Assembly (NCBI GenBank): GCA_903913215.1
Contig: CAIWKE010000041.1
Span: forward strand, 1 to 59,714
Length of the DNA stretch: 59,714 nucleotides
Source: an uncultured Holophagaceae bacterium
Lineage (GTDB): Bacteria > Acidobacteriota > Holophagae > Holophagales > Holophagaceae
Reading direction: 5' to 3'
The notes beneath the pieces were generated by a model that was not told the origin of the DNA, made no database searches, and saw only the letters and a program-made list of their open reading frames with translations. The translations under genes and the position numbers were made by a program. The first letter of the stretch is position 1. Each line of letters starts with the position of its first letter. This document shows, one piece after another, positions 40,612 through 50,336 of the stretch.

Positions 40612-41580
40612 CTATTTCGCCGAGCCGCCCTTGTCGTGGCAGCCGAGGCAGGTGGCGATGCGGGGATCGGGACTGCGCCAGTACACCGAGTCCTGATTGC
40701 CGAAATCCTTCTGCAGGGCTTCAGGCACCTTGCCCCAGTAGAAGGCGAAGGCCGTAGTACCGTCCCCCTTGGTTTCCTTCATGTAGAGGGGACCGGGATC
40801 CGTGCTGGGTCGTCCCTTCTCATCCGAAAAGGTGGACATGACCGCATAAGCGCCCGCGGGCAAAGCCTTGCCGGCCTTGTACGCATCGATGCCCGAGGCG
40901 GTAACCCAGATACGGCGCCAGCGGTCCCCATGGGCCTTGCTACGCATCGGCGCAGCTTCAGCAGGTTCCAGGCTCGCATAGTCCAGGGCGCGAATGGGCA
41001 ACTCAGCTTCCACATCGTTCCGCTTGGCGGCATCGGCAGCAGCGGCAGCCTTGTTGGTGGCCTCGTTACCGAAGACCATGATGCCCCCCAGTTTGCCGCT
41101 GAAGCCCCAGCAGCCCAGCCAAATGAAGCCCACCAGGAGAGCCGGTGCCCCCACGCCCCGCTCCCAGAAACGGCGCCCGGCGTGATGTCGGTGCTCACCC
41201 GGAGTGGCAGCATCCTGGCGCCAGGCCCGCCAGAGCAGAAACACGCAAAGGCCACCCACGAGGAAACCGATGAGGGAGGCCTGGATGTGGATCTGCAGGA
41301 TCCGCTGCAGCACCTGCTTCTCCGAGGCAACCACCGGCAGGAAGGCCGAAGGGGCGATGAGGTTGATCTGCCGCCCCCACATGAGGCCACTGAAGAGCGC
41401 GACGGTACTGCCCAACCAGCCGATGGCACCCAGGAAGAAGGAGGTTCCCACCAGGGCCCTGCCGTGCCGCGGGTGAAAGGAAACCAGCATGGCCAGGGGC
41501 AGCACTGCCACCAAGCCCAGGGGAATGTGGACGAAAGCTGGATGCTCCCGGGCGATGAACTCGATGAGGGGTGAGGTCAT
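40612..41580 (-). CDS. DUF2231-like membrane domain fused to a P460-like c-type cytochrome
   Basis: Start ATG 41580 (MTSPLIEFIAREHPAFVHIP) has GGAG 5 nt upstream; 322 aa. The first 170 residues form about four membrane helices with HPAFVHIPLGLVAV and LQIHIQASLIGFLV, a pattern like DUF2231, whose histidines may bind haem b. The periplasmic second half resembles cytochrome P460: YKAGKALPAGAYAVMSTF, AFYWGKVPEALQ and one c-type haem site CLGCHDKGG near the C-terminus. It is last in the cytochrome operon. Whether it is an electron-transfer protein or a P460-like oxidase is open. Confidence 0.72.
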   Translation of the reverse strand: MTSPLIEFIAREHPAFVHIPLGLVAVLPLAMLVSFHPRHGRALVGTSFFLGAIGWLGSTVALFSGLMWGRQINLIAPSAFLPVVASEKQVLQRILQIHIQASLIGFLVGGLCVFLLWRAWRQDAATPGEHRHHAGRRFWERGVGAPALLVGFIWLGCWGFSGKLGGIMVFGNEATNKAAAAADAAKRNDVEAELPIRALDYASLEPAEAAPMRSKAHGDRWRRIWVTASGIDAYKAGKALPAGAYAVMSTFSDEKGRPSTDPGPLYMKETKGDGTTAFAFYWGKVPEALQKDFGNQDSVYWRSPDPRIATCLGCHDKGGSAK

Positions 41581-41591
41581 GTCACTCCCGA

Positions 41592-42461
41592 TCAGAACAC
41601 GCGGGCCACGTTGAAACCGATGGACCACTGGGAACTGAGCCGCGGGCCGCCACCATAGTCCCCGCTCAGCACCTGGTTGGCAGTTGTGCCGCTGGCATTG
41701 GTGCCCACCAGGGTGAAGCGGTGCTTGAAGGTCTTGTACGAGATACCTGCCGCAAACCCCTGCTGGTAGGTGCTGCCGTCGGTGATGCCGCCGGGAGCCG
41801 CCTTGGCCAGCTTGGAGGGCCGAGGATAGTACTCCGTCACGATGGAGAACTTCTCAGTGATCCCGTAGCGAAGTCCCACGCCCACGTTGAAGACGCCGCC
41901 CTTGTTGGGCTTGGTGTTGGGCGTCACGCCGGGAGGCACAGCCAGGATGGTGTCCGTGGTGGTGGTGCGGGTGATGTAGGTGGGTACCACGGAGAGAATC
42001 AGGTCATCCGTGACGAAGATCTCCGTGGGGAGCTGGAAGGTCACACCCGTGATACCCACCTTCCCCAAGGGGGTCACCGTTTCCTTCACCACCTCGTCAA
42101 AGCGCTCCGCTCGGAGCGCCATGCGGACATGGTCGCCATTCAGAACCTGCTGTTGCAGGCCCACGGTGAAGGTCTTGTTGTCAGCCGTGCGGTAGATGAA
42201 GGCGTTCAACCCCTTGATGGGCTTGATGCCGAAGGTGAAGCCCAGGCCCGCATAGGTGTACCCGTCCAGGCCGTAGGCGTCCTTGCCGTGGTCCTTCACG
42301 GGTTGAATGAACCGGTGGGTGAAGGCCACGCCGATGTCCCAGAACTGCATGCGCTCTGCTGAGGGGAGGTTGATCACCAGCGGGACATCCGAGGATTCGG
42401 CCCGAAGCCCGCCCCCAGCCAGAAGGACGCAGGCGATCAGGGAAGCGGTCTTCCTTGTCAT
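41592..42461 (-). CDS. DUF5777-like outer-membrane beta-barrel candidate
   Basis: A 289-aa protein from ATG 42461, with a signal peptide MTRKTASLIACVLLAGGGLRA. The rest alternates polar and hydrophobic residues as in beta barrels (DGYTYAGLGFTFGIKPIKGL, FTVGLQQQVL, SKLAKAAPGG turn, WSIGFNVARVF). The C-terminal Phe and overall pattern suggest an outer-membrane barrel. The family is repeatedly seen beside cytochrome genes; here it lies between a cytochrome c and the P460-like gene, so it may be a porin of an electron conduit, or a plain accessory protein. Confidence 0.68.
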   Translation of the reverse strand: MTRKTASLIACVLLAGGGLRAESSDVPLVINLPSAERMQFWDIGVAFTHRFIQPVKDHGKDAYGLDGYTYAGLGFTFGIKPIKGLNAFIYRTADNKTFTVGLQQQVLNGDHVRMALRAERFDEVVKETVTPLGKVGITGVTFQLPTEIFVTDDLILSVVPTYITRTTTTDTILAVPPGVTPNTKPNKGGVFNVGVGLRYGITEKFSIVTEYYPRPSKLAKAAPGGITDGSTYQQGFAAGISYKTFKHRFTLVGTNASGTTANQVLSGDYGGGPRLSSQWSIGFNVARVF

Positions 42462-42477
42462 GGGGGCTCCAGAAAAG

Positions 42478-42828
42478 CTACTTGGCGGAGAACTTGCGCA
42501 TGATGGCGACCATCTTCTGGACATCATCGGCGCTCATCTTGTCCTTGAAGGCTGGCATCTTCTCTTTGCCCTCCAGGGTGATCTTGACCCAATCGCTGTC
42601 CTTCTTCTTGTTGGCCTTGCGGCTGTCGGTGAAGTCGAAGCCCGCATCGGGCAGCGGCGCACCGTTGTTATCGCGCCCATTCCCATTGAAACCATGGCAG
42701 CGCGCACAGGCGTCATTCCAATACTTCTGGAGGTCGCCCCCCTGGAACTTAGGCAGATCCTTGGCGGGGTCGCCAGCCAGCAGGGTCGCGCTGGCCAGGA
42801 AGAGAATGGAAAGAAGGGATTGGCGCAT
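42478..42828 (-). CDS. Monohaem class I cytochrome c
   Basis: A 116-aa secreted cytochrome from ATG 42828 with CGGAGG upstream. Signal peptide MRQSLLSILFLASATLLA, then the haem-binding motif CARCHG and the axial methionine in KMPAFKDKMSADDVQKMVAI. It is 31 nt after the giant cytochrome and 16 nt before the barrel gene. It probably ferries electrons in the periplasm. Confidence 0.9.
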   Translation of the reverse strand: MRQSLLSILFLASATLLAGDPAKDLPKFQGGDLQKYWNDACARCHGFNGNGRDNNGAPLPDAGFDFTDSRKANKKKDSDWVKITLEGKEKMPAFKDKMSADDVQKMVAIMRKFSAK

Positions 42829-42859
42829 GAGGCCTCCGTGTTGGGGGGGAATGGTAGGG

Positions 42860-45688
42860 TCAATTCCAGACATTGTTTGTGGTGCTGTGGGTCTGACCGT
42901 GGCAGCTAAGGGCACAACCGCCACGGCCGATGGTGGCGTTGACGGTGTAGGTCAGAGCACCAGTCGCTGGAGTGGCGCCACCACCGAATTTGACGGTGTC
43001 ACTGGAGAGCTGATCGGGAGACAAACGCACGGCGGTGGTGTCCAGATACTTGAAGTGGTTCTGGGCACCGGTCTTGGCCTGGGTCATGTCGTGGCAATAG
43101 TCGCAAGTGGTGTTGTGGGCACCAGGGTTGTTGTGGCGGCCAGTGGCATCGTTGTACTGGGTGGCAGTCGAGGTCACCTTGTGGCAGGCGATGCAGTAGG
43201 TCGTGGCGTTGACGGTGATGCTTCCAGTCTGCCAACCCGGAGTGGTCTGGCCACCGTGACAGCTGATGTTCGAGCAGGTGAAGGCCGAGGCACTGGACAC
43301 GGTGCCGGCCGCACCGCTCTGGGCATTGAAGGTGGGGTCAATGGCCACCGTGCCTGGAGCTGCGGGAAGGGGCGTGATCCTCAGGTTGGCATTGCTGTAG
43401 TGAGTGTTGGTGGCGTCGCCGGGGAGCGAGCCCGCGTGGCAGGCGGCGCAGGCCGGAAGAGAGGCGCCAGCCAGGGAGGCCGGCAGGCCCGGCGTGGACC
43501 GGGTGAAGGTGCTGAGGTTCAGGTGCTTGGGATGCGCCCCCTGGATGTTGGGCCAGGTGGAGCCTGTTGGGCCCATGGTCTTGAAGCTGGCGCCCACATG
43601 GCAGGAGAGACAGGTTCCGGCCGCCGTGCCCGTGGCCACCGGCGAAGCCAGGGTGTGGCAGACCGCGCAGACGGGCCCCGTCTTCGTGGTGGCGCCGCTG
43701 AGGTCGTGACAGGTGGAGCACTCGGCGGTGAACTGGGCCTGGGTGACGGTCTGATGGTGGTTCCCCGCATTGCTGGTGTCAGTGCTAAGGAAGGGGACGG
43801 GATGTGCCACTCCAGTGCCCTTGGGGGCACCCCAGTGGTTCGTGATGGCATCGTGGGTCTGACCGTGGCAGCTGAGGGCGCAGCCTCCGTCGCCCTCGGG
43901 CGTCGTGGCATTGATGGTGTAGGTGGCCGCCCCGGTGATGGCGTAGGTGGCATTGGTCAGTTTGAATTTGATGGTACCGCTGGGCAGCTGGTCCGCGGGT
44001 ATCCCGGTTCCCACCCCACTGACCGCCGTCGTGTTCAGGTACTTGAAGTGGTTCACGGCGCCACCATTAGTGTTGGCCGTGGTCATGTCGTGGCAGATCG
44101 TGCAGTCCAGGGTGGATGCGTTGCTGTGGGTGCCCCAGGCGTGGCGGCCGATGGCGTCGTTGTACTGGGAGGCGGTAGCTCCACTGTTGACTGCATGGCA
44201 AAGGAGGCACTGGGACGCGGAGGCGATGGAGCCCGTCCGCCAGTTCGGGGAGACCTGGCCGCCATGGCAGCTCGTGCTGGAGCAGGTGAGGGCCGAGGGG
44301 TTGAAGCCTGCGGTGCCTCCGCTTTGGGCATTGTAGGTGGCGCTGAGGCTCACCGTGGCAGGCCCGGAGAGCGGTGCAATCAGGGCGTTGGCATTGGTGT
44401 AGTGGGTGGTGGTCCCCGCCCCGGACCCGGCGTGGCAGGCGTCGCAGTTGAGGGGTGTCAAAAGAGCCATGTGCTTGGCGTGGGCCCCGGCGATGTTGGG
44501 GAAGGTCGTGCCGGTGGGCCCAGCCGGCAGCCCTGAGGGGCCCGCATGGCAGGATAAGCAGGTTCCCACACCGGTGCCGGCAGAGGTCGGGTTCGCGAGG
44601 GTGTGGCAGGTGGCGCAGAGCGGAGCGCCGGCGATGGGTGAGGTGCCCGAATAGGCGTGGCAGGTGGCGCAGTCCGAGGCGAACGCCGCCGGGGTCACCG
44701 TGAGGTGCCCGTTGCCCTGCGTGTCCGTCTGGCCCCCCAGGAAGGGGACGGGGTGTGGGGCTCCCGTGGCGGTCCAGGTGTCAAAAGCGGTTGTGTGGGT
44801 GTGAGTGTGGCAAAGGATCGCGCAGCCCCCATTGCCCTGGGTGGCACTGGTGACCGTGTAGGTCCCGGCTCCCGTGACGATCAGGGGATCGAAGACGATG
44901 GTGCCGCTGGGCAGCTGATCGGCGGGGATCCCCGTGGCCACCCCGTCAACGGCGGAGGTGTTGAGGTACTTGAAATGGGCCAGGGCCCCCAGAGAGCCGT
45001 TGCCCATGGCGTGGCAGGTGGTGCAGGCGATGCCGTTGGCGGCGACGGTGGCGTTGTGGGTGCCCAGGCTGTGACGACCGAAGGCATCATTGGCCTGGAC
45101 CGCCGTACCAGCGGTGGCGGCGACGCCGTGGCAGGCCGTGCACTGTGTCGCGGTGTTGAGCGTGCCATTCTGCCAGCCGGGTGTGGTCTGAGCGCCGTGG
45201 CAGCTCACGTTGGAGCAGGTGAGGGCAGCAGGACTGAAGGTCGGGGATGTGCCGGACTTGGGGGTGAAGATCTGGTCGATGACCACGGGGGCCGGACCCG
45301 TCGGGGTGCCGATGCGCACGTTGGCATTGGTGTAGTGGGTGACGGTCCCCGCCCCGGCGCCTGCATGGCAGGTGTCGCAGGTCAGCTGAGTGGCCAGGGC
45401 CATGTGCTTGGCGTGGGCGCCCGACAGGCTGGGGAAACCCGAGCCGCTGGGTCCATTGGGTAGGCCGGGGGTGCCCGTGTGGCACGAGAGGCAGGTGCCA
45501 GCGCCCGTACCCGACGCAACCGGATTGCCCACGGTGTGGCAGACGTTGCAGAGTGGCGCCGCCGCCAGGGGCGAAGTGCCACTGGTTGCGTGGCAGGTGG
45601 CGCAGTCCCCGGCGAAGGCTGCGGCGGTCACAGTCAGGTGGCCGTTCTGCTGAGTGTCGGTCTGGCCCTTCAGGAAGGGCACGGGATG
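42860..45688 (-). repeat. Three tandem 8-haem modules within the cytochrome gene
   Basis: Modules span 45688-44756, 44755-43805 and 43804-42860. In each, motifs run CX2CH x4, CX4CH, CX2CH x2, CX3CH, with the landmarks GAHAKHM (GAHPKHL in module 3), THYTNAN, GRHxxGTH and HFKYLNT between them. Modules 1 and 2 are most alike; module 3 is more diverged. Internal duplication is the simplest explanation. Confidence 0.85.
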
Positions 45689-46321
45689 GGGCGCTGTGTT
45701 GGCGCCGTGGCAGAGGGTGGCGTTGTAGCAGCCAGGCTGGGTTCCCGCCGCCGCAGGCGTGATGGGGTGACCGGCTGGGTTCTTGGGTGAACCGGGATAG
45801 TGGCACTGGGCGCAGACAGCAGCATTGGCCGGATCGGTGGTGGCGTGGGTGTACACCGAGCCCCCCGAGAGCCGCCAGGGCTTGGCCGGATGCGGAGCCT
45901 GGACACCGTGGCAGGATGCGCAGGCGCTCGCGGAGGGTCCGCCAGAGAAGTCCTTGCCGTGGCAGAGCTGGCAGGAGACAAGGCTCCCCCCGTCGGCCTG
46001 AATGGCCAGCTTGGCGCGCATGCCGTGGGTGGCAGCGCCGGCCCAGCCGGGCGTGGACTGATGGTGGCAGCCCGTGGTGAGGCAGGTGGGAACCCCGCTA
46101 CCCACTTTGATGATCGATAGTTCATGGCACTTGGTGCAGGCATCCACCCCTGCCAGCGCTTGGCCACCGTGAGCACTGATCCACCCGGTGGGGTGGTAGT
46201 CCCCGTAATACTGGGCCACGCTGCCCGCCCCCTTGCCGCTGCCGCACCCCAGCGTGACCAGGGCCACCACAGCGATACCCAGCGCGCGCATGATCCCGAT
46301 CCGATTCCAAATGCTGTTCAT
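42860..46321 (-). CDS. Giant multihaem c-type cytochrome lipoprotein (about 30 haem motifs)
   Basis: About 1153 aa from ATG 46321 (frame is open to 46417; ATG 46291, which gives MRALGIAVVALVTLGC, is also possible). The lipobox LVTLGCGSG indicates an exported lipoprotein. I count 30 haem-type motifs: 22 CX2CH, 3 CX3CH, 4 CX4CH and 1 CX5CH. Six lie in an N-terminal part; the remaining 24 are in three tandem modules of about 311-317 residues that each start with HPVPFL (DNA 45688, 44755, 43804) and hold eight motifs in the same order. This resembles the CxxxxCH/CxxCH proteins of Geobacter. It heads the operon; a role in extracellular electron transfer is likely. Confidence 0.88.
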   Translation of the reverse strand: MNSIWNRIGIMRALGIAVVALVTLGCGSGKGAGSVAQYYGDYHPTGWISAHGGQALAGVDACTKCHELSIIKVGSGVPTCLTTGCHHQSTPGWAGAATHGMRAKLAIQADGGSLVSCQLCHGKDFSGGPSASACASCHGVQAPHPAKPWRLSGGSVYTHATTDPANAAVCAQCHYPGSPKNPAGHPITPAAAGTQPGCYNATLCHGANTAPHPVPFLKGQTDTQQNGHLTVTAAAFAGDCATCHATSGTSPLAAAPLCNVCHTVGNPVASGTGAGTCLSCHTGTPGLPNGPSGSGFPSLSGAHAKHMALATQLTCDTCHAGAGAGTVTHYTNANVRIGTPTGPAPVVIDQIFTPKSGTSPTFSPAALTCSNVSCHGAQTTPGWQNGTLNTATQCTACHGVAATAGTAVQANDAFGRHSLGTHNATVAANGIACTTCHAMGNGSLGALAHFKYLNTSAVDGVATGIPADQLPSGTIVFDPLIVTGAGTYTVTSATQGNGGCAILCHTHTHTTAFDTWTATGAPHPVPFLGGQTDTQGNGHLTVTPAAFASDCATCHAYSGTSPIAGAPLCATCHTLANPTSAGTGVGTCLSCHAGPSGLPAGPTGTTFPNIAGAHAKHMALLTPLNCDACHAGSGAGTTTHYTNANALIAPLSGPATVSLSATYNAQSGGTAGFNPSALTCSSTSCHGGQVSPNWRTGSIASASQCLLCHAVNSGATASQYNDAIGRHAWGTHSNASTLDCTICHDMTTANTNGGAVNHFKYLNTTAVSGVGTGIPADQLPSGTIKFKLTNATYAITGAATYTINATTPEGDGGCALSCHGQTHDAITNHWGAPKGTGVAHPVPFLSTDTSNAGNHHQTVTQAQFTAECSTCHDLSGATTKTGPVCAVCHTLASPVATGTAAGTCLSCHVGASFKTMGPTGSTWPNIQGAHPKHLNLSTFTRSTPGLPASLAGASLPACAACHAGSLPGDATNTHYSNANLRITPLPAAPGTVAIDPTFNAQSGAAGTVSSASAFTCSNISCHGGQTTPGWQTGSITVNATTYCIACHKVTSTATQYNDATGRHNNPGAHNTTCDYCHDMTQAKTGAQNHFKYLDTTAVRLSPDQLSSDTVKFGGGATPATGALTYTVNATIGRGGCALSCHGQTHSTTNNVWN

Positions 46322-46695
46322 AGCGACACCCGAGGTTGCTGGCGGTTCTGGCTGGGACTGGGCTGGATCGGACTGAATGGGCTTGGTAAGTGATTCATCG
46401 TCTGTAAGCTTGATCATTCAAATTTTGGGGTCCATGTATGGGTGAAAAACGGGAAGGCCGCCATGGCTGAGCGACTAAGTTTGCCGAGGTCTGACGGTAT
46501 TTTGTCTGTAACTACACTTTTATCCAAGCTGAGACATCTGCCCATATCCCCAATGGGAACAGTTATCTAGACCTAAAGGACTAGAGTCTGTTTGCTAGGT
46601 AGGTGTGGACGCACAGGGGGCGCATCCCAGGCGAGACCAGGAAAGCGAGCTTGGGAAACAGGCCCTTGCCCTTCCCAATTGCCCCACCCGGGCCG
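46322..46695. promoter_or_regulatory. Divergent control region between cytochrome operon and sensor kinase
   Basis: A 374-nt region with A/T-rich patches and no supported gene. On the minus strand TTGGAT and CAAAAT 17 nt apart (near 46500-46530) are a possible promoter for the cytochrome operon. A near-palindrome TCTAGACCTA/AAGGACTAGA at 46566-46585 (8 of 10 positions symmetric) and a CCCAT-ATCCCCA-ATGGG dyad just upstream are candidate regulator sites. No experimental consensus supports these calls. Confidence 0.45.
46566..46585. promoter_or_regulatory. Near-palindromic operator candidate
   Basis: The 20-mer TCTAGACCTAAAGGACTAGA is symmetric at 8 of 10 paired positions and lies between the divergent cytochrome and two-component genes. 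Its size and symmetry suit a dimeric NarL-type regulator, such as the one encoded at 49683. Confidence 0.4.
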
Positions 46696-49686
46696 ATGTC
46701 CTACCCTTCAGCTTCGATGCCAGCTGTAACGAGAGAAGCACACGTTCGACACCCGGGACCTCTCCGGTGGGTGCTTCTCGTCCTGGTCTGGCTGTGGACG
46801 GCAGGTGGGTCTCTGGCGCTGGAACCGGGGCGCCCCCTTTCGAACCATGCCCACCGGGTCTTCCGCAGCGAGGAGGGGCTGCTCCAGGATGCAGCCCTGG
46901 CCCTGCTGGAAGGTCGCGATGGCTACCTGTGGATCGGCACTTCGGCAGGCCTGCTCCGCTTTGATGGCGCCTCCTTCGAGACCTATTCCCGCTTGAACGT
47001 GCCTGGCTTCGTCCACAACGAGGTCCAGTGCCTGGCCCAGGAACCAGATGGGGCCCTCTGGATTGGCACTCGGGAGTCCGGGCTCTACCGTTTCCAAAAG
47101 GGCTCCGTGCGCGCCTATGGCCTGACTGAGGGCTTGCCAGACCAGCCCATCCGCCACCTGCTGAGGGACCGCCAGGGCATTCTCTGGGCCTCGCCGACGG
47201 AAGGACCCCTGCTCCGCTTCGACGGAGGCAGCTTCCATCCCGTGGAGTCTGCGGCGGCGCACCTTGAGATCCGGGCCCTGACTGAAGATCGCGAAGGCAT
47301 TCTCTGGGTGGGTACCGCCAGCTCGGGCCTCTGGCGACTGAAGCAAGGGCGTCTGGTCCTGGCGGCGCTGGCCCCAGAGATCACCGCCCTGGATACCGGC
47401 CTGGACGGCACCCTCTGGGTGGGTACCCGCACTCAGGGCCTGCAGCAGTTCGAGGAGGGTCGGCTGCAGACCCCGGCCTGGGCCCGGTCCCTGCCATCCA
47501 AACCCATCAGCCACCTGCTACTGGACCGCCATGGCAGCCTCTGGGTTGGGCTGGAGCAGGGAGGGCTCTTCCGCCACACCGCCTCCGGCCGCCTGGAGAC
47601 CACCCCCGGCGCCCCCGGCTCCCGCTGGACCCCAAGGGCCCTCATGGAAGACAGCTCCGGTGCGCTCTGGTGGGGCACCGCGGATCGGGGCATGGGCGTC
47701 ATCTACCCGGTTCCGTTCAGGCCCATCCCCTTGCTGGATGCAGATCCGGAAGAACCCGTGAGCATGGTCTGCCAGGACCCTGCTGGGGAAGTCTGGTGCC
47801 TCACCGGGGACCAGAGCCTGGGCCATCTGCTGAACGGCCATCTGCAGCGCAAGATTCCAAAATCCGCCTTTGACGGCCCGCTTTCGGCCCTTTGGCCCCG
47901 ACAGGCGGGCGGCCTTTGGCTGGGCACCCGGAAGGGTGAGATTCTTGTTCTAGATCAAGGTCAGATTCATCGACAGTCCTGGTCCCAGACCAGCCAACCA
48001 GAGCCAGTCCTATCAATTTACGAGGATCCCCAAGGTACCCTTTGGGTGGCCAAGGCCCACCAGGGCCTGGTGAAGGTCGCACCGGGCCAGGCTCCACTCC
48101 ATCTGCCCTCCATCCAGGGCGTGGTGGCCATGACCGGGGGCGGACCCGATCCTCTCTATCTCGCCAACCGCACGATGGGCCTGGGCCTGCTGGCCGCCGA
48201 TCAGGCCCGGTGGCTGGGCCGGGCAGAGGGCTTGGGCTCCAGTGGCGCCCAGGCCCTGCACCTGGATGCCAAAGGCAATTTATGGATCGGCACCCCGGAC
48301 GGCCTGAGGCGCTATCGGAATGGGGGCTTCCAATCCGTGGTGAATCCGCCCGAGGCGCTGCAAGCGCCCATTCACGCCATCCTCGAAGACCCAGGAGAGC
48401 GTCTGTGGCTCAGCACTGGGCAGGGGGTGTTGCGCATTCCCCTGGCCGCGCTCCTCAAGGGGCTACGTCAGCCAACCCTCCTGGCACCGGTTGTCTATGA
48501 CCACCACGACGGCATGCCCTCCCGGGAGACCTTTGGTGGAGCCCAGCCCGCAGCCTGGCTCAGCCGCGAGGGAGAGTTCTATTTCCCCACCATCCGCGGC
48601 CTCTGCCGCCTGGATGGCAACCTGACCACGCCACCGGGGCCCCCCATCCGGCTCCACCTTCTGAGGGCGGAAAGCGATGAGACCGTGCTGCCTGAGGGCA
48701 CACCAATCCATGTGCCATCGGGTACCCACCGCTTCGAGGTCTACTACACCGCCACCTCCCTGACCCGGGCCGATAAAATCCGCTTCCGCTACCGACTTGA
48801 AGGATGGGACCGCCTCTGGAGCGACGTTGGCGACCGCCGCTTCTCGGCCTACTCGAACCTGCCCCCAGGCTCATACCGCTTCGTCGTCCAGGCATGGCGC
48901 CTGGACGATGACGCCCCGCCCTCGGAGCAGTCCGTGGCCGTGGTGGTGGAGCCCTTCCTGTACCAACGGCCTGCCTTCTGGGCCCTGTGCGCCCTGGCCC
49001 TCGCAGCCTTTGCCTGGTGGCTCCTGCGCCTCCGCCTCCAGCAGGTGGAGGCCCGTTCCGCCGTGCTCGCCGAGCGGAACCGCATGGCCCGTGAGATCCA
49101 CGATCACCTGGCCCAGGGCTTCACGGGGGTACTGCTTCAACTGGAGGCCGCCGAGGCCAAGCTGGGTCACATGGCCGGGGATCCAGCCCCCGTCCTGACC
49201 CGCCTGGACCATGCAAGGAACCTGGCCGTGGCCAGCCTCCAGGAGGCCCGGCGTTCTGTAATGTCCCTCAGCCCCCGCAAGCTGGAGGGCATGGACCTCC
49301 TGGGCGCCTTGCGCTCCCTTGCGGATCGCCTGCTGGCGGGCACTGAGATCCAGGTGGAGCTGGTCCAAACGGGCCAGCCCCGGCCCATCCCGCCGCGTCT
49401 GGAAGAGGAGCTGCTCCGCATGGCCCAGGAGCTGTTCACCAACGCCCTGCGTCATGGCAAGGCCCACTGGGTACGGACGGTACTGCAGTTTGAGGGGCGC
49501 CATATCCACCTCAGCGTGGAGGACGATGGCCAGGGCTTCGACCCCACCGCCAGCGCTGCGGGCTACGGCATGCGCAGCATCCGCGAGAGCCTCCGAAAGT
49601 GGCGTGGCCATATGGACATCGACAGCAGCCCGGGGTTCGGCGCCCGCATCACCCTCACCCTTCCCCTCCGCAGGTGGCCCTTATGA
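46696..49686 (+). CDS. Beta-propeller (Reg_prop) sensor histidine kinase
   Basis: A very large sensor, about 996 aa from ATG 46696; starts at 46603 (GTG) or 46717 are also possible as no clear ribosome-binding site decides. A signal helix (RWVLLVLVWLWTAGG) is followed by about twelve two-component propeller repeats such as GYLWIGTSAGLLRFDG, GALWIGTRESGLYRF and GNLWIGTPDGLRRY, a Y_Y_Y domain (RFRYRLEGWDRLWSD), one membrane helix (FWALCALALAAFAWWLL), and a HisKA_3/HATPase module. The H box is EIHDHLAQGF (His codon 49099-49101), with N box LFTNALRHG and DDGQGFDP. It is divergent from the cytochrome operon. Confidence 0.9.
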   Translation: MSYPSASMPAVTREAHVRHPGPLRWVLLVLVWLWTAGGSLALEPGRPLSNHAHRVFRSEEGLLQDAALALLEGRDGYLWIGTSAGLLRFDGASFETYSRLNVPGFVHNEVQCLAQEPDGALWIGTRESGLYRFQKGSVRAYGLTEGLPDQPIRHLLRDRQGILWASPTEGPLLRFDGGSFHPVESAAAHLEIRALTEDREGILWVGTASSGLWRLKQGRLVLAALAPEITALDTGLDGTLWVGTRTQGLQQFEEGRLQTPAWARSLPSKPISHLLLDRHGSLWVGLEQGGLFRHTASGRLETTPGAPGSRWTPRALMEDSSGALWWGTADRGMGVIYPVPFRPIPLLDADPEEPVSMVCQDPAGEVWCLTGDQSLGHLLNGHLQRKIPKSAFDGPLSALWPRQAGGLWLGTRKGEILVLDQGQIHRQSWSQTSQPEPVLSIYEDPQGTLWVAKAHQGLVKVAPGQAPLHLPSIQGVVAMTGGGPDPLYLANRTMGLGLLAADQARWLGRAEGLGSSGAQALHLDAKGNLWIGTPDGLRRYRNGGFQSVVNPPEALQAPIHAILEDPGERLWLSTGQGVLRIPLAALLKGLRQPTLLAPVVYDHHDGMPSRETFGGAQPAAWLSREGEFYFPTIRGLCRLDGNLTTPPGPPIRLHLLRAESDETVLPEGTPIHVPSGTHRFEVYYTATSLTRADKIRFRYRLEGWDRLWSDVGDRRFSAYSNLPPGSYRFVVQAWRLDDDAPPSEQSVAVVVEPFLYQRPAFWALCALALAAFAWWLLRLRLQQVEARSAVLAERNRMAREIHDHLAQGFTGVLLQLEAAEAKLGHMAGDPAPVLTRLDHARNLAVASLQEARRSVMSLSPRKLEGMDLLGALRSLADRLLAGTEIQVELVQTGQPRPIPPRLEEELLRMAQELFTNALRHGKAHWVRTVLQFEGRHIHLSVEDDGQGFDPTASAAGYGMRSIRESLRKWRGHMDIDSSPGFGARITLTLPLRRWPL

Positions 49687-50336
49687 ACCTCGAACCAACC
49701 GATCGCATCAAACTCCTCATCGTCGATGACCATCCCATCGTCCGGGACGGCCTCGTGGCCATCTTGCACGAGGGCGAACCTGACCTGGAGGTGGTGGGCG
49801 AAGCCGGGGATGGCAGGGAGGCCGTGGCCGCCTGGCGGAAGCTGCAGCCCACGGTGACCATCATGGACCTGCAGCTACCCGGCCAGAGCGGCGTGGAGGC
49901 CATCCTGGCCATCCGCCGCGAGGATCCCGATGCCCGCATCCTGGTGCTCACGACCTTCGACGGGGACGCGGACATCCAGCGAGCCCTGGAGGCCGGGGCC
50001 CGGGGGTACCTGCTGAAGAGTGTGCGCCGGGCCATTCTCATCGAGGCTGTGCGGGCCGTGGCCGCCGGCCAGCGCTACCTGCCCCCCGCCACCGCCGCTC
50101 GCCTGGTGGAGGCCATGGAGGCGGAGCGACTCACGCCCCGGGAGCTGGATGTGCTGCGCCTCCTGGCCCAGGGCCAGCGCAATCGCGAGATCGCCGATGC
50201 CCTGGGTCTGGCGGAACCCACGGTGAAGATCCACGTGAACAACCTGCTGCGAAAACTCCAGGCCAAGGACCGCACCGAGGCCTCCATGATCGCCCTCAAG
50301 CGGGGTCTCATCCACCTGAGGCCCGGGGGAGTCTAA
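49683..50336 (+). CDS. NarL/LuxR-type response regulator
   Basis: A 217-aa regulator whose ATG overlaps the kinase stop (ATGA), so the two are co-translated. The receiver domain has LLIVDDHPIVRDGL, phospho-acceptor Asp62 in TIMDLQLPGQSG and the Lys of YLLKSV; the HTH is LTPRELDVLRLLAQGQRNRE followed by PTVKIHVNNLLRKL. It is the obvious partner of the propeller kinase and the first candidate regulator of the cytochrome operon. Confidence 0.95.
   Translation: MNLEPTDRIKLLIVDDHPIVRDGLVAILHEGEPDLEVVGEAGDGREAVAAWRKLQPTVTIMDLQLPGQSGVEAILAIRREDPDARILVLTTFDGDADIQRALEAGARGYLLKSVRRAILIEAVRAVAAGQRYLPPATAARLVEAMEAERLTPRELDVLRLLAQGQRNREIADALGLAEPTVKIHVNNLLRKLQAKDRTEASMIALKRGLIHLRPGGV

Follow-up and report, generated by a model that had tools for sequence, protein, structure and literature searches.

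A four-gene cytochrome operon and its modular giant protein

The window analysed here, the whole 59,714-nucleotide contig CAIWKE010000041.1 of an uncultured Holophagaceae bacterium (assembly GCA_903913215.1), carries four minus-strand genes which encode, in order, a giant multihaem lipoprotein, a monohaem cytochrome c, a predicted outer-membrane barrel of family DUF5777 and a membrane cytochrome, and which are separated by spacers of 31, 16 and 11 nucleotides. The first-pass annotation, made from the letters alone, had proposed this set as a candidate electron conduit across the envelope, and the genes and spacers lie exactly where it had located them. The genes, together with the modules into which the giant protein divides, are as follows.

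42860-46321, minus strand: giant multihaem lipoprotein, 1153 residues, 30 haem motifs, lipobox LGC at C26
45695-46246, minus strand: hexahaem cap at the mature N-terminus, with motifs CX2, CX4, CX2, CX2, CX2 and CX5, starting at the lipid-bearing cysteine
44762-45694, minus strand: octahaem module 1, 61% identical to module 2
43811-44761, minus strand: octahaem module 2, 56% identical to module 3
42863-43810, minus strand: octahaem module 3, C-terminal, 52% identical to module 1
42478-42828, minus strand: monohaem class I-type cytochrome c, 116 residues, CARCH at 41; PF13442, E=1.2e-10; N-terminal signal read by eye
41592-42461, minus strand: predicted DUF5777 outer-membrane beta-barrel, 289 residues, about 12 strands, C-terminal Phe; PF19089, E=1.7e-21
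40612-41580, minus strand: membrane cytochrome with four hydrophobic segments and the invariant H13, H18 and H98; a soluble domain follows, closing with CLGCH

The 30 haem motifs of the giant protein, a number already given by the first-pass annotation and upheld by our recount, comprise 22 CX2CH, 3 CX3CH, 4 CX4CH and 1 CX5CH, and they read along the chain as 242225 followed by three times 22224223. All 61 cysteines are used, namely the lipobox C26 and two for each of the 30 motifs, and because every cysteine is thus accounted for, the eight non-canonical motifs are supported as well. In 500 shuffles of the protein, CX2CH occurred on average 0.2 times and at most 4 times, which together with the complete cysteine accounting rules out chance motif richness. 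The protein also has 67 histidines, 37 of them beyond those in the motifs, which would be enough for bis-histidine ligation of every haem; the polypeptide alone has a mass of about 115 kDa. Among family profiles it matches PF14522 (E=3.2e-17) and PF22113 (E=1.8e-15), and the CxxxxCH/CxxCH domain TIGR01904 is matched in three places (E=5.7e-17, 61.2 bits against a cut-off of 27).

The same architecture was found in all 29 full-length giant proteins that we parsed (the window and 28 other loci), each of which divides into modules with no motif left over and has, in its mature part, one lipobox cysteine and exactly two cysteines per haem. The grammar has three elements: a six-haem cap (four haems in L149), tetrahaem units which may be absent and whose final motif is CX14CH or CX9CH, and between one and five octahaem units, of which the C-terminal one is of type 22224223 in all 29. 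The resulting haem counts are 14 (one protein), 18 (eight), 20 (one), 22 (four), 30 (twelve), and 34, 42 and 50 (one each), and the motifs total 549 CX2CH, 100 CX4CH, 53 CX3CH, 29 CX5CH, 14 CX14CH and 7 CX9CH. Modules within one giant protein are 44-81% identical to each other in the six proteins compared.

The membrane cytochrome has hydrophobic stretches at residues ~15-33, 48-66, 99-117 and 142-170, followed by about 150 residues which end in CXXCH. H13, H18, H98, H217 and the CXXCH are invariant in the 17 same-genus proteins aligned (17 of 28 sequences) and likewise in a set of 11 which includes two other genera. The CXXCH demands a periplasmic C-terminus; if the N-terminus is periplasmic too, H13/H18 and H98 would be about equally deep in the membrane, where they could ligate a haem b or form part of a quinone site. 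The earlier label of this protein as DUF2231-like and P460-like calls for a correction: the window protein scores below both Pfam cut-offs (PF09990, 11.3 bits against 26.4; PF16694, 16.3 bits against 27), whereas its relative L104 exceeds the DUF2231 cut-off with 32.7 bits. Of the 11 aligned members, ten have a DUF2231 match at E<=0.1 (the window protein is not one of them) and four have a P460 match at that level. A profile comparison by hhalign with P460 reached a probability of 81.7 over 34 columns only, using 11 of 20 domains (13 were submitted, and L222, with stops, and L231, with a doubtful frame, were dropped).

A conserved gene set with a variable number of haems

Co-occurrence of the four genes elsewhere had been set beforehand as a test of the conduit proposal, and it was found at 26 of 27 same-genus loci and at four more divergent Holophagaceae loci with differing flanks. 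With orthology of the barrel defined as at least 75% identity, 27 of the 36 other same-genus genomes have an ortholog, five have a paralog of about 50% identity only, and four have none. The order monohaem cytochrome, barrel, membrane cytochrome is kept at all 27 loci (in L035 the last gene is cut at the contig end), and the giant cytochrome gene lies upstream of this trio in 26, the 27th contig ending there. The gene alaS is near the operon in 23 of the 27, as is a kinase-regulator pair, and the remaining contigs end too early. Since alaS and the kinase are also kept nearby, the same-genus order alone could be regional synteny.

A scan with the membrane-cytochrome alignment in one genome per species, which was keyed on two conserved peptides and may miss distant relatives, gave 30 loci; these overlap for the most part with the 27 same-genus contigs, and the two sets are not independent. 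Twenty-six loci are filed under Holophagaceae (10 of them as Geothrix) and four only under Acidobacteriota, the contigs of the latter being assigned elsewhere in our analysis to the same genus or family. All four genes stand in order in 29 of the 30, the exception (L138) having no room for them, and the operon was found in Geothrix limicola, G. rubra, G. campi, G. terrae, G. paludis and G. oryzisoli. The four divergent loci come from other genera of the family (L146, L149) or from Holophagaceae without a genus label (L152 and L153, with membrane cytochromes 59 and 56% identical), and neither alaS nor the kinase was found in the available stretches around them, nor around L104/L105. Mere regional synteny is thereby ruled out, and because the four-gene set persists beyond its alaS/kinase surroundings, the operon is kept as a unit.

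Within this set, which these Geothrix-type bacteria of soil and sediment keep constant, it is the haem number that varies. Mapped on a tree built from the three partner proteins (31 rows, of which 29 have a haem count), the haem number changes at least 11 times, and its eight states require at least seven changes; several of the tree's deep forks have weak support, and many rows come from metagenome-assembled genomes (MAGs). Loci with 34 and 50 haems (L152, L153) are sisters with fork support of 100/100, as are loci with 22 and 18 haems (L131, L151) with 99/93. The 22-haem L135 is nested in a clade of five rows (100/99), all other members of which have 30 haems, and its barrel is 93-95% identical to those of its 30-haem relatives. 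Its C-terminal module is closest to other 22-haem forms (72-81%) and its T14 tetrahaem unit is 89-92% identical to theirs, which counters a simple deletion in place; its cap, at 73-74% identity to 30-haem and 22-haem forms alike, is uninformative. Allele replacement fits L135 better, because its barrel groups with the 30-haem relatives and its module and T14 unit with the 22-haem forms. To judge from these comparisons, gain or loss of modules and replacement of the giant gene both seem to occur while the downstream trio stays put. Assembly collapse is a possible source of the variation for individual MAGs, and the counts of 14, 20, 34, 42 and 50 each come from one MAG only; against it as a general explanation, seven NZ_ records have 18 (six) or 30 (one) haems, the 22-haem type is built of different units (T14, T9), and the repeated modules of L153 are not identical to each other (53-81%).

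Two further genes lie beside the operon in the window, and they are the pair mentioned above.

46603-49686, plus strand: divergent Reg_prop / Y_Y_Y / HisKA_3 sensor kinase, a possible regulator
49599-50336, plus strand: LuxR-type response regulator, a possible partner of the sensor kinase

This pair of a divergent propeller-type sensor kinase and a LuxR regulator (46603-50336) lies beside the operon in the genus and was not found beside it in the four divergent loci, and it is a candidate for its regulation. A PHROGs scan of ten proteins on the ribosomal-protein side of the window matched EF-G only.

The DUF5777 barrel and its redox partners

The assignment of the third gene to DUF5777 was borne out, as PF19089 is matched with 77.1 bits against a gathering score of 23.1. 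An AlphaFold2 model built on 38 aligned relatives (mean predicted local distance difference test score, pLDDT, 85.5; predicted template modelling score, pTM, 0.82) has about 12 long strands, connected by short turns on one side of the barrel and by longer loops on the opposite side, and closes on a C-terminal phenylalanine, the strand count and topology being our own reading. A soluble or periplasmic protein had been named in advance as the outcome that would speak against the proposal; the model instead predicts an outer-membrane beta-barrel of about 12 strands. Foldseek ranks porins highest (2x9k, an E. coli porin, at E=3.0e-8; the best OmpG entry at 4.3e-8), and VIA-align places KdgM first (Z 18.3, 2.1 Å, 166 residues), followed by a COG4313 channel (17.6), FapF, VhGalP and NanC (16.6). 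Such model-based resemblances among small barrels carry no functional evidence. A sequence search for solved relatives of the barrel and the membrane cytochrome gave no usable match.

PF19089 is matched in 102 of 347 acidobacterial genomes. Of these, 77 lie outside the family, and our survey took in 72 of them (G053, which is L070, G068, G158, G236 and G249 were left out). In 24 of the 72, a redox motif precedes the barrel in the same open frame (22 CXXCH, 2 CuA-type), and one such frame (L116) has two CXXCH. Counting motifs either fused or close on the same strand, 45 of 72 loci are positive compared with 31 of 198 shifted control windows; the upstream and downstream neighbour matches use stop-to-stop frames, some of which are not genes. 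In L120 and L122, a CuA gene seen by eye upstream of the barrel was missed by the survey because of its distance limit. By eye, the fused domains are of five kinds, and labels such as 'Reeler-like' and 'PSCyt1-like' were assigned in the same way. A Pfam scan of 10 of the 24 fused proteins matched DUF5777 in all 10; above the cut-off, L156 and L174 also match Cytochrome_CBB3 (1e-10 and 6e-12), the family of the window's monohaem protein, and L176 and L181 match Cupredoxin_1; L113 and L203 have sub-threshold cytochrome matches only, and the other four have no match to a redox family. These fusions are evidence, at the level of gene architecture, for a redox partner of the barrel family.

Several members of the family deserve separate mention. 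A CXXCH-bearing domain which looks Reeler-like is fused to the barrel in L159, L160, L178, L182, L187, L188, L195, L199, L200 and L208, and for the one of these that was scanned (L159) Pfam names no family for the domain. The fusion of a CuA-type cupredoxin to the barrel in L176 and L181 is, to our knowledge, an unusual pairing. A monohaem-DUF5777 fusion (L123:1977-6175) lies downstream of genes for a sulfatase, a sugar transferase and a lipoprotein diacylglyceryl transferase. In other genera of the family (L107, L109, L110, L111), a DUF5777 barrel is located in an apparent block of c-type cytochrome assembly genes. The genus itself has a second DUF5777 barrel (L058-L069, 12 loci, two of them on contigs below 4 kb) which is 42-50% identical to the operon barrel, and near this paralog L065 and L067 show a weak partial match (40-44 bits) to the membrane part of the membrane cytochrome.

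DUF5777 also occurs on four Bacteroidota plasmids. YceI, which binds isoprenoid-type ligands, adjoins the barrel gene in three of them and is one gene off in L236, and a Rieske protein adjoins it in L234. Small CX2CH/CX4CH proteins are encoded within a few genes of DUF5777 on all four plasmids, with a match above the Pfam cut-off in L234 only. By tblastn, no YceI or Rieske homolog was found near the 72 acidobacterial loci. DUF5777 is not named in the literature searched.

A putative electron route, its rivals and known systems

Whether the four genes together specify a single trans-envelope redox system is, in our view, roughly an even call. In such a system, the inner-membrane protein would exchange electrons with the quinone pool, and the haem c at its C-terminus would hand them to the small monohaem cytochrome in the periplasm. 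This cytochrome would dock where the 12-stranded DUF5777 barrel opens to the periplasm; the monohaem protein and the barrel would then be the split counterpart of the fused cytochrome-barrel proteins of other Acidobacteriota. The giant lipoprotein would have its anchor in the outer membrane and face outward; it may serve as a long haem chain which delivers charge to an external partner or takes it up from there, with a length set by how many tetra- and octahaem modules it has, and electrons could flow in either direction between the quinone pool and that partner. The best reading of the operon is a Cyc2-like port, in which a one-centre carrier is paired with a small barrel, together with a haem wire of variable length; that the four genes form one conduit is plausible but not proven. 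As findings, the haem ladder with its variable length and the one-centre DUF5777 fusions are stronger and newer than the conduit reading.

Several observations weigh against this route, and they concern its parts as well as the family at large. The crossing of the outer membrane is the weakest step, as the narrow bore expected of a 12-strand barrel without a known cofactor of its own leaves this crossing unexplained. The fold model of the octahaem module, built on 39 of 62 such modules, is unusable (pLDDT 45), and a promoter and terminator scan of the region gave no promoter-like site, a result of little weight at this G+C content. Among same-genus genomes, 9 of 36 have no orthologous barrel, including three (G007, G014, G018) that are 97-99% complete, and one family member (L108) has a giant cytochrome and a barrel with no monohaem or membrane cytochrome adjoining. 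In the survey, 27 of 72 loci have no redox motif nearby, the positive control windows set a background, and six of the 10 scanned fusions match no redox family above the cut-off in their extension. No monohaem partner was detected near the L058-L069 paralogs in gene calls from a crude script, and the barrel of L107 neighbours CcsA and ResB (confirmed by Pfam in L107 only), which counts against the usual redox partner of the barrel.

The rival that survives best, possible although on the unlikely side, is a port for a shuttle or ligand, in which the barrel would admit a small redox molecule or chelated metal to its periplasmic mouth, the monohaem cytochrome would reduce or oxidise it there, the giant cytochrome would store or spread charge, and no electron would cross the barrel. 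It is favoured by the small channels (KdgM, the COG4313 channel and NanC) nearest to the barrel fold and by YceI near all four Bacteroidota copies. The arrangement proposed for Cyc2, moreover, has a haem that closes the pore on its periplasmic side and Fe2+ that enters from the other (PMC8406198); by analogy, a haem at the mouth with the substrate entering the pore could hold for this operon too, which makes it the main rival. This explanation, however, does not account for the giant multihaem lipoprotein as a constant fourth gene in Holophagaceae.

We consider improbable a purely periplasmic system, in which the giant lipoprotein would face the periplasm and serve a soluble respiratory reaction by storing electrons or bridging their path, and the barrel would import substrate only. 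Lipoproteins can face inward, and the giant protein may be such a case; the membrane protein has the weak P460-like traits described above (four of 11 members; a 34-column profile match), and the P460 family is associated with NO and hydroxylamine chemistry. Yet 14-50 haems fit poorly with a bridge over a periplasm of fixed width, and Pfam and TIGR scans recognised no catalytic reductase among the four genes. A classical porin-cytochrome conduit, with a multihaem cytochrome threaded through the barrel as in MtrAB, is very improbable: its parts list is similar in outline (a multihaem lipoprotein and an outer-membrane barrel), but about 12 strands are predicted here against 26 in MtrB (PMC7198977), which would make the barrel too narrow for an MtrA-type cytochrome, PF11854 is matched neither by the barrel nor in its own genome, and the small periplasmic partner has one haem.

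Returning to the Cyc2-like port with its haem wire, a wider proposal is that DUF5777 barrels are an unrecognised class of outer-membrane electron ports which crosses phyla, each working with one redox centre at a time (haem c, CuA or Rieske), fused or neighbouring, and that in Holophagaceae this port is joined to a covalent wire of 14-50 haems whose length changes by gain, loss and exchange of modules or alleles while the port remains constant. We offer this proposal tentatively and would sooner expect it to need revision than to stand in full. The operon is a concrete candidate for outward electron transfer in named, cultured Geothrix species, and it gives DUF5777, a family of unknown function, a testable role; with the natural 14-50-haem variants of one wire, it would be possible to relate conductance or storage to chain length. 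G. fermentans is an iron reducer according to PMC8100337. The literature matches listed link no gene set of Geothrix to the outward transfer of electrons, and among the same matches (mostly without subscription papers) no title or abstract opening describes the operon. For a Holophaga genome, PMC7399161 reports an MtrB-like and an ExtB/E-type conduit, and it gives 12 multihaem cytochromes each for that genome and a Geothrix genome.

The first-pass annotation had held that known conduits have other components, which is consistent with the features tested here. The operon resembles MtrCAB and other porin-cytochrome conduits in combining a multihaem lipoprotein, an outer-membrane barrel and a further cytochrome. 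In PMC7198977, MtrB is described with 26 strands around MtrA; the window barrel, with about 12 strands, is not such a large cytochrome sheath. It also has no homology to MtrB/PioB, since PF11854 is not among its Pfam matches at E<=1 (the comparison covered MtrB/PioB, with OmbB- and ExtB-type barrels outside it), and the sole small periplasmic candidate within the operon has one CXXCH. MtrB/PioB was not found in the window's own genome or in 36 of the 37 genomes of the genus. The sole match is in G009 (L239, L242), which lacks the operon's barrel and is 78% complete; an MtrB/PioB conduit may replace the operon there, and one incomplete genome proves nothing.

With the filament cytochromes OmcS, OmcE and OmcZ, the giant protein shares haem units repeated as a chain. 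For OmcZ, PMC9473688 describes subunits with eight haems each and a segment between C77 and H93, which we read as a CX14CH spacing like that in the T14 unit of some relatives. Those filaments, however, are polymers of separate subunits, whereas here the modules are joined in one chain; a sequence search of solved structures with the giant protein gave no usable match, and no solved filament subunit was matched (best E 0.14). The GSu_C4xC__C2xCH cytochromes (TIGR01904) are alike in their domain, which the giant protein contains three times. For Geobacter, PMC12977616 describes multihaem cytochromes that turn over rapidly, at the level of whole genes and paralogs.

Cyc2 has a single c-type haem beside an outer-membrane barrel, as does the operon, and relatives of the window barrel are fused in the same order, an N-terminal haem domain and then the barrel. 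The window differs in that the haem protein has a gene of its own (among the 72 barrel relatives, 22 have a fused CXXCH extension), that a PF19089 barrel of about 12 strands stands against the 16 predicted for Cyc2 (PMC8406198), and that here a giant multihaem gene belongs to the operon. With its fixed trio and a giant cytochrome of 14-50 haems, the system looks like a new kind of trans-envelope electron route.

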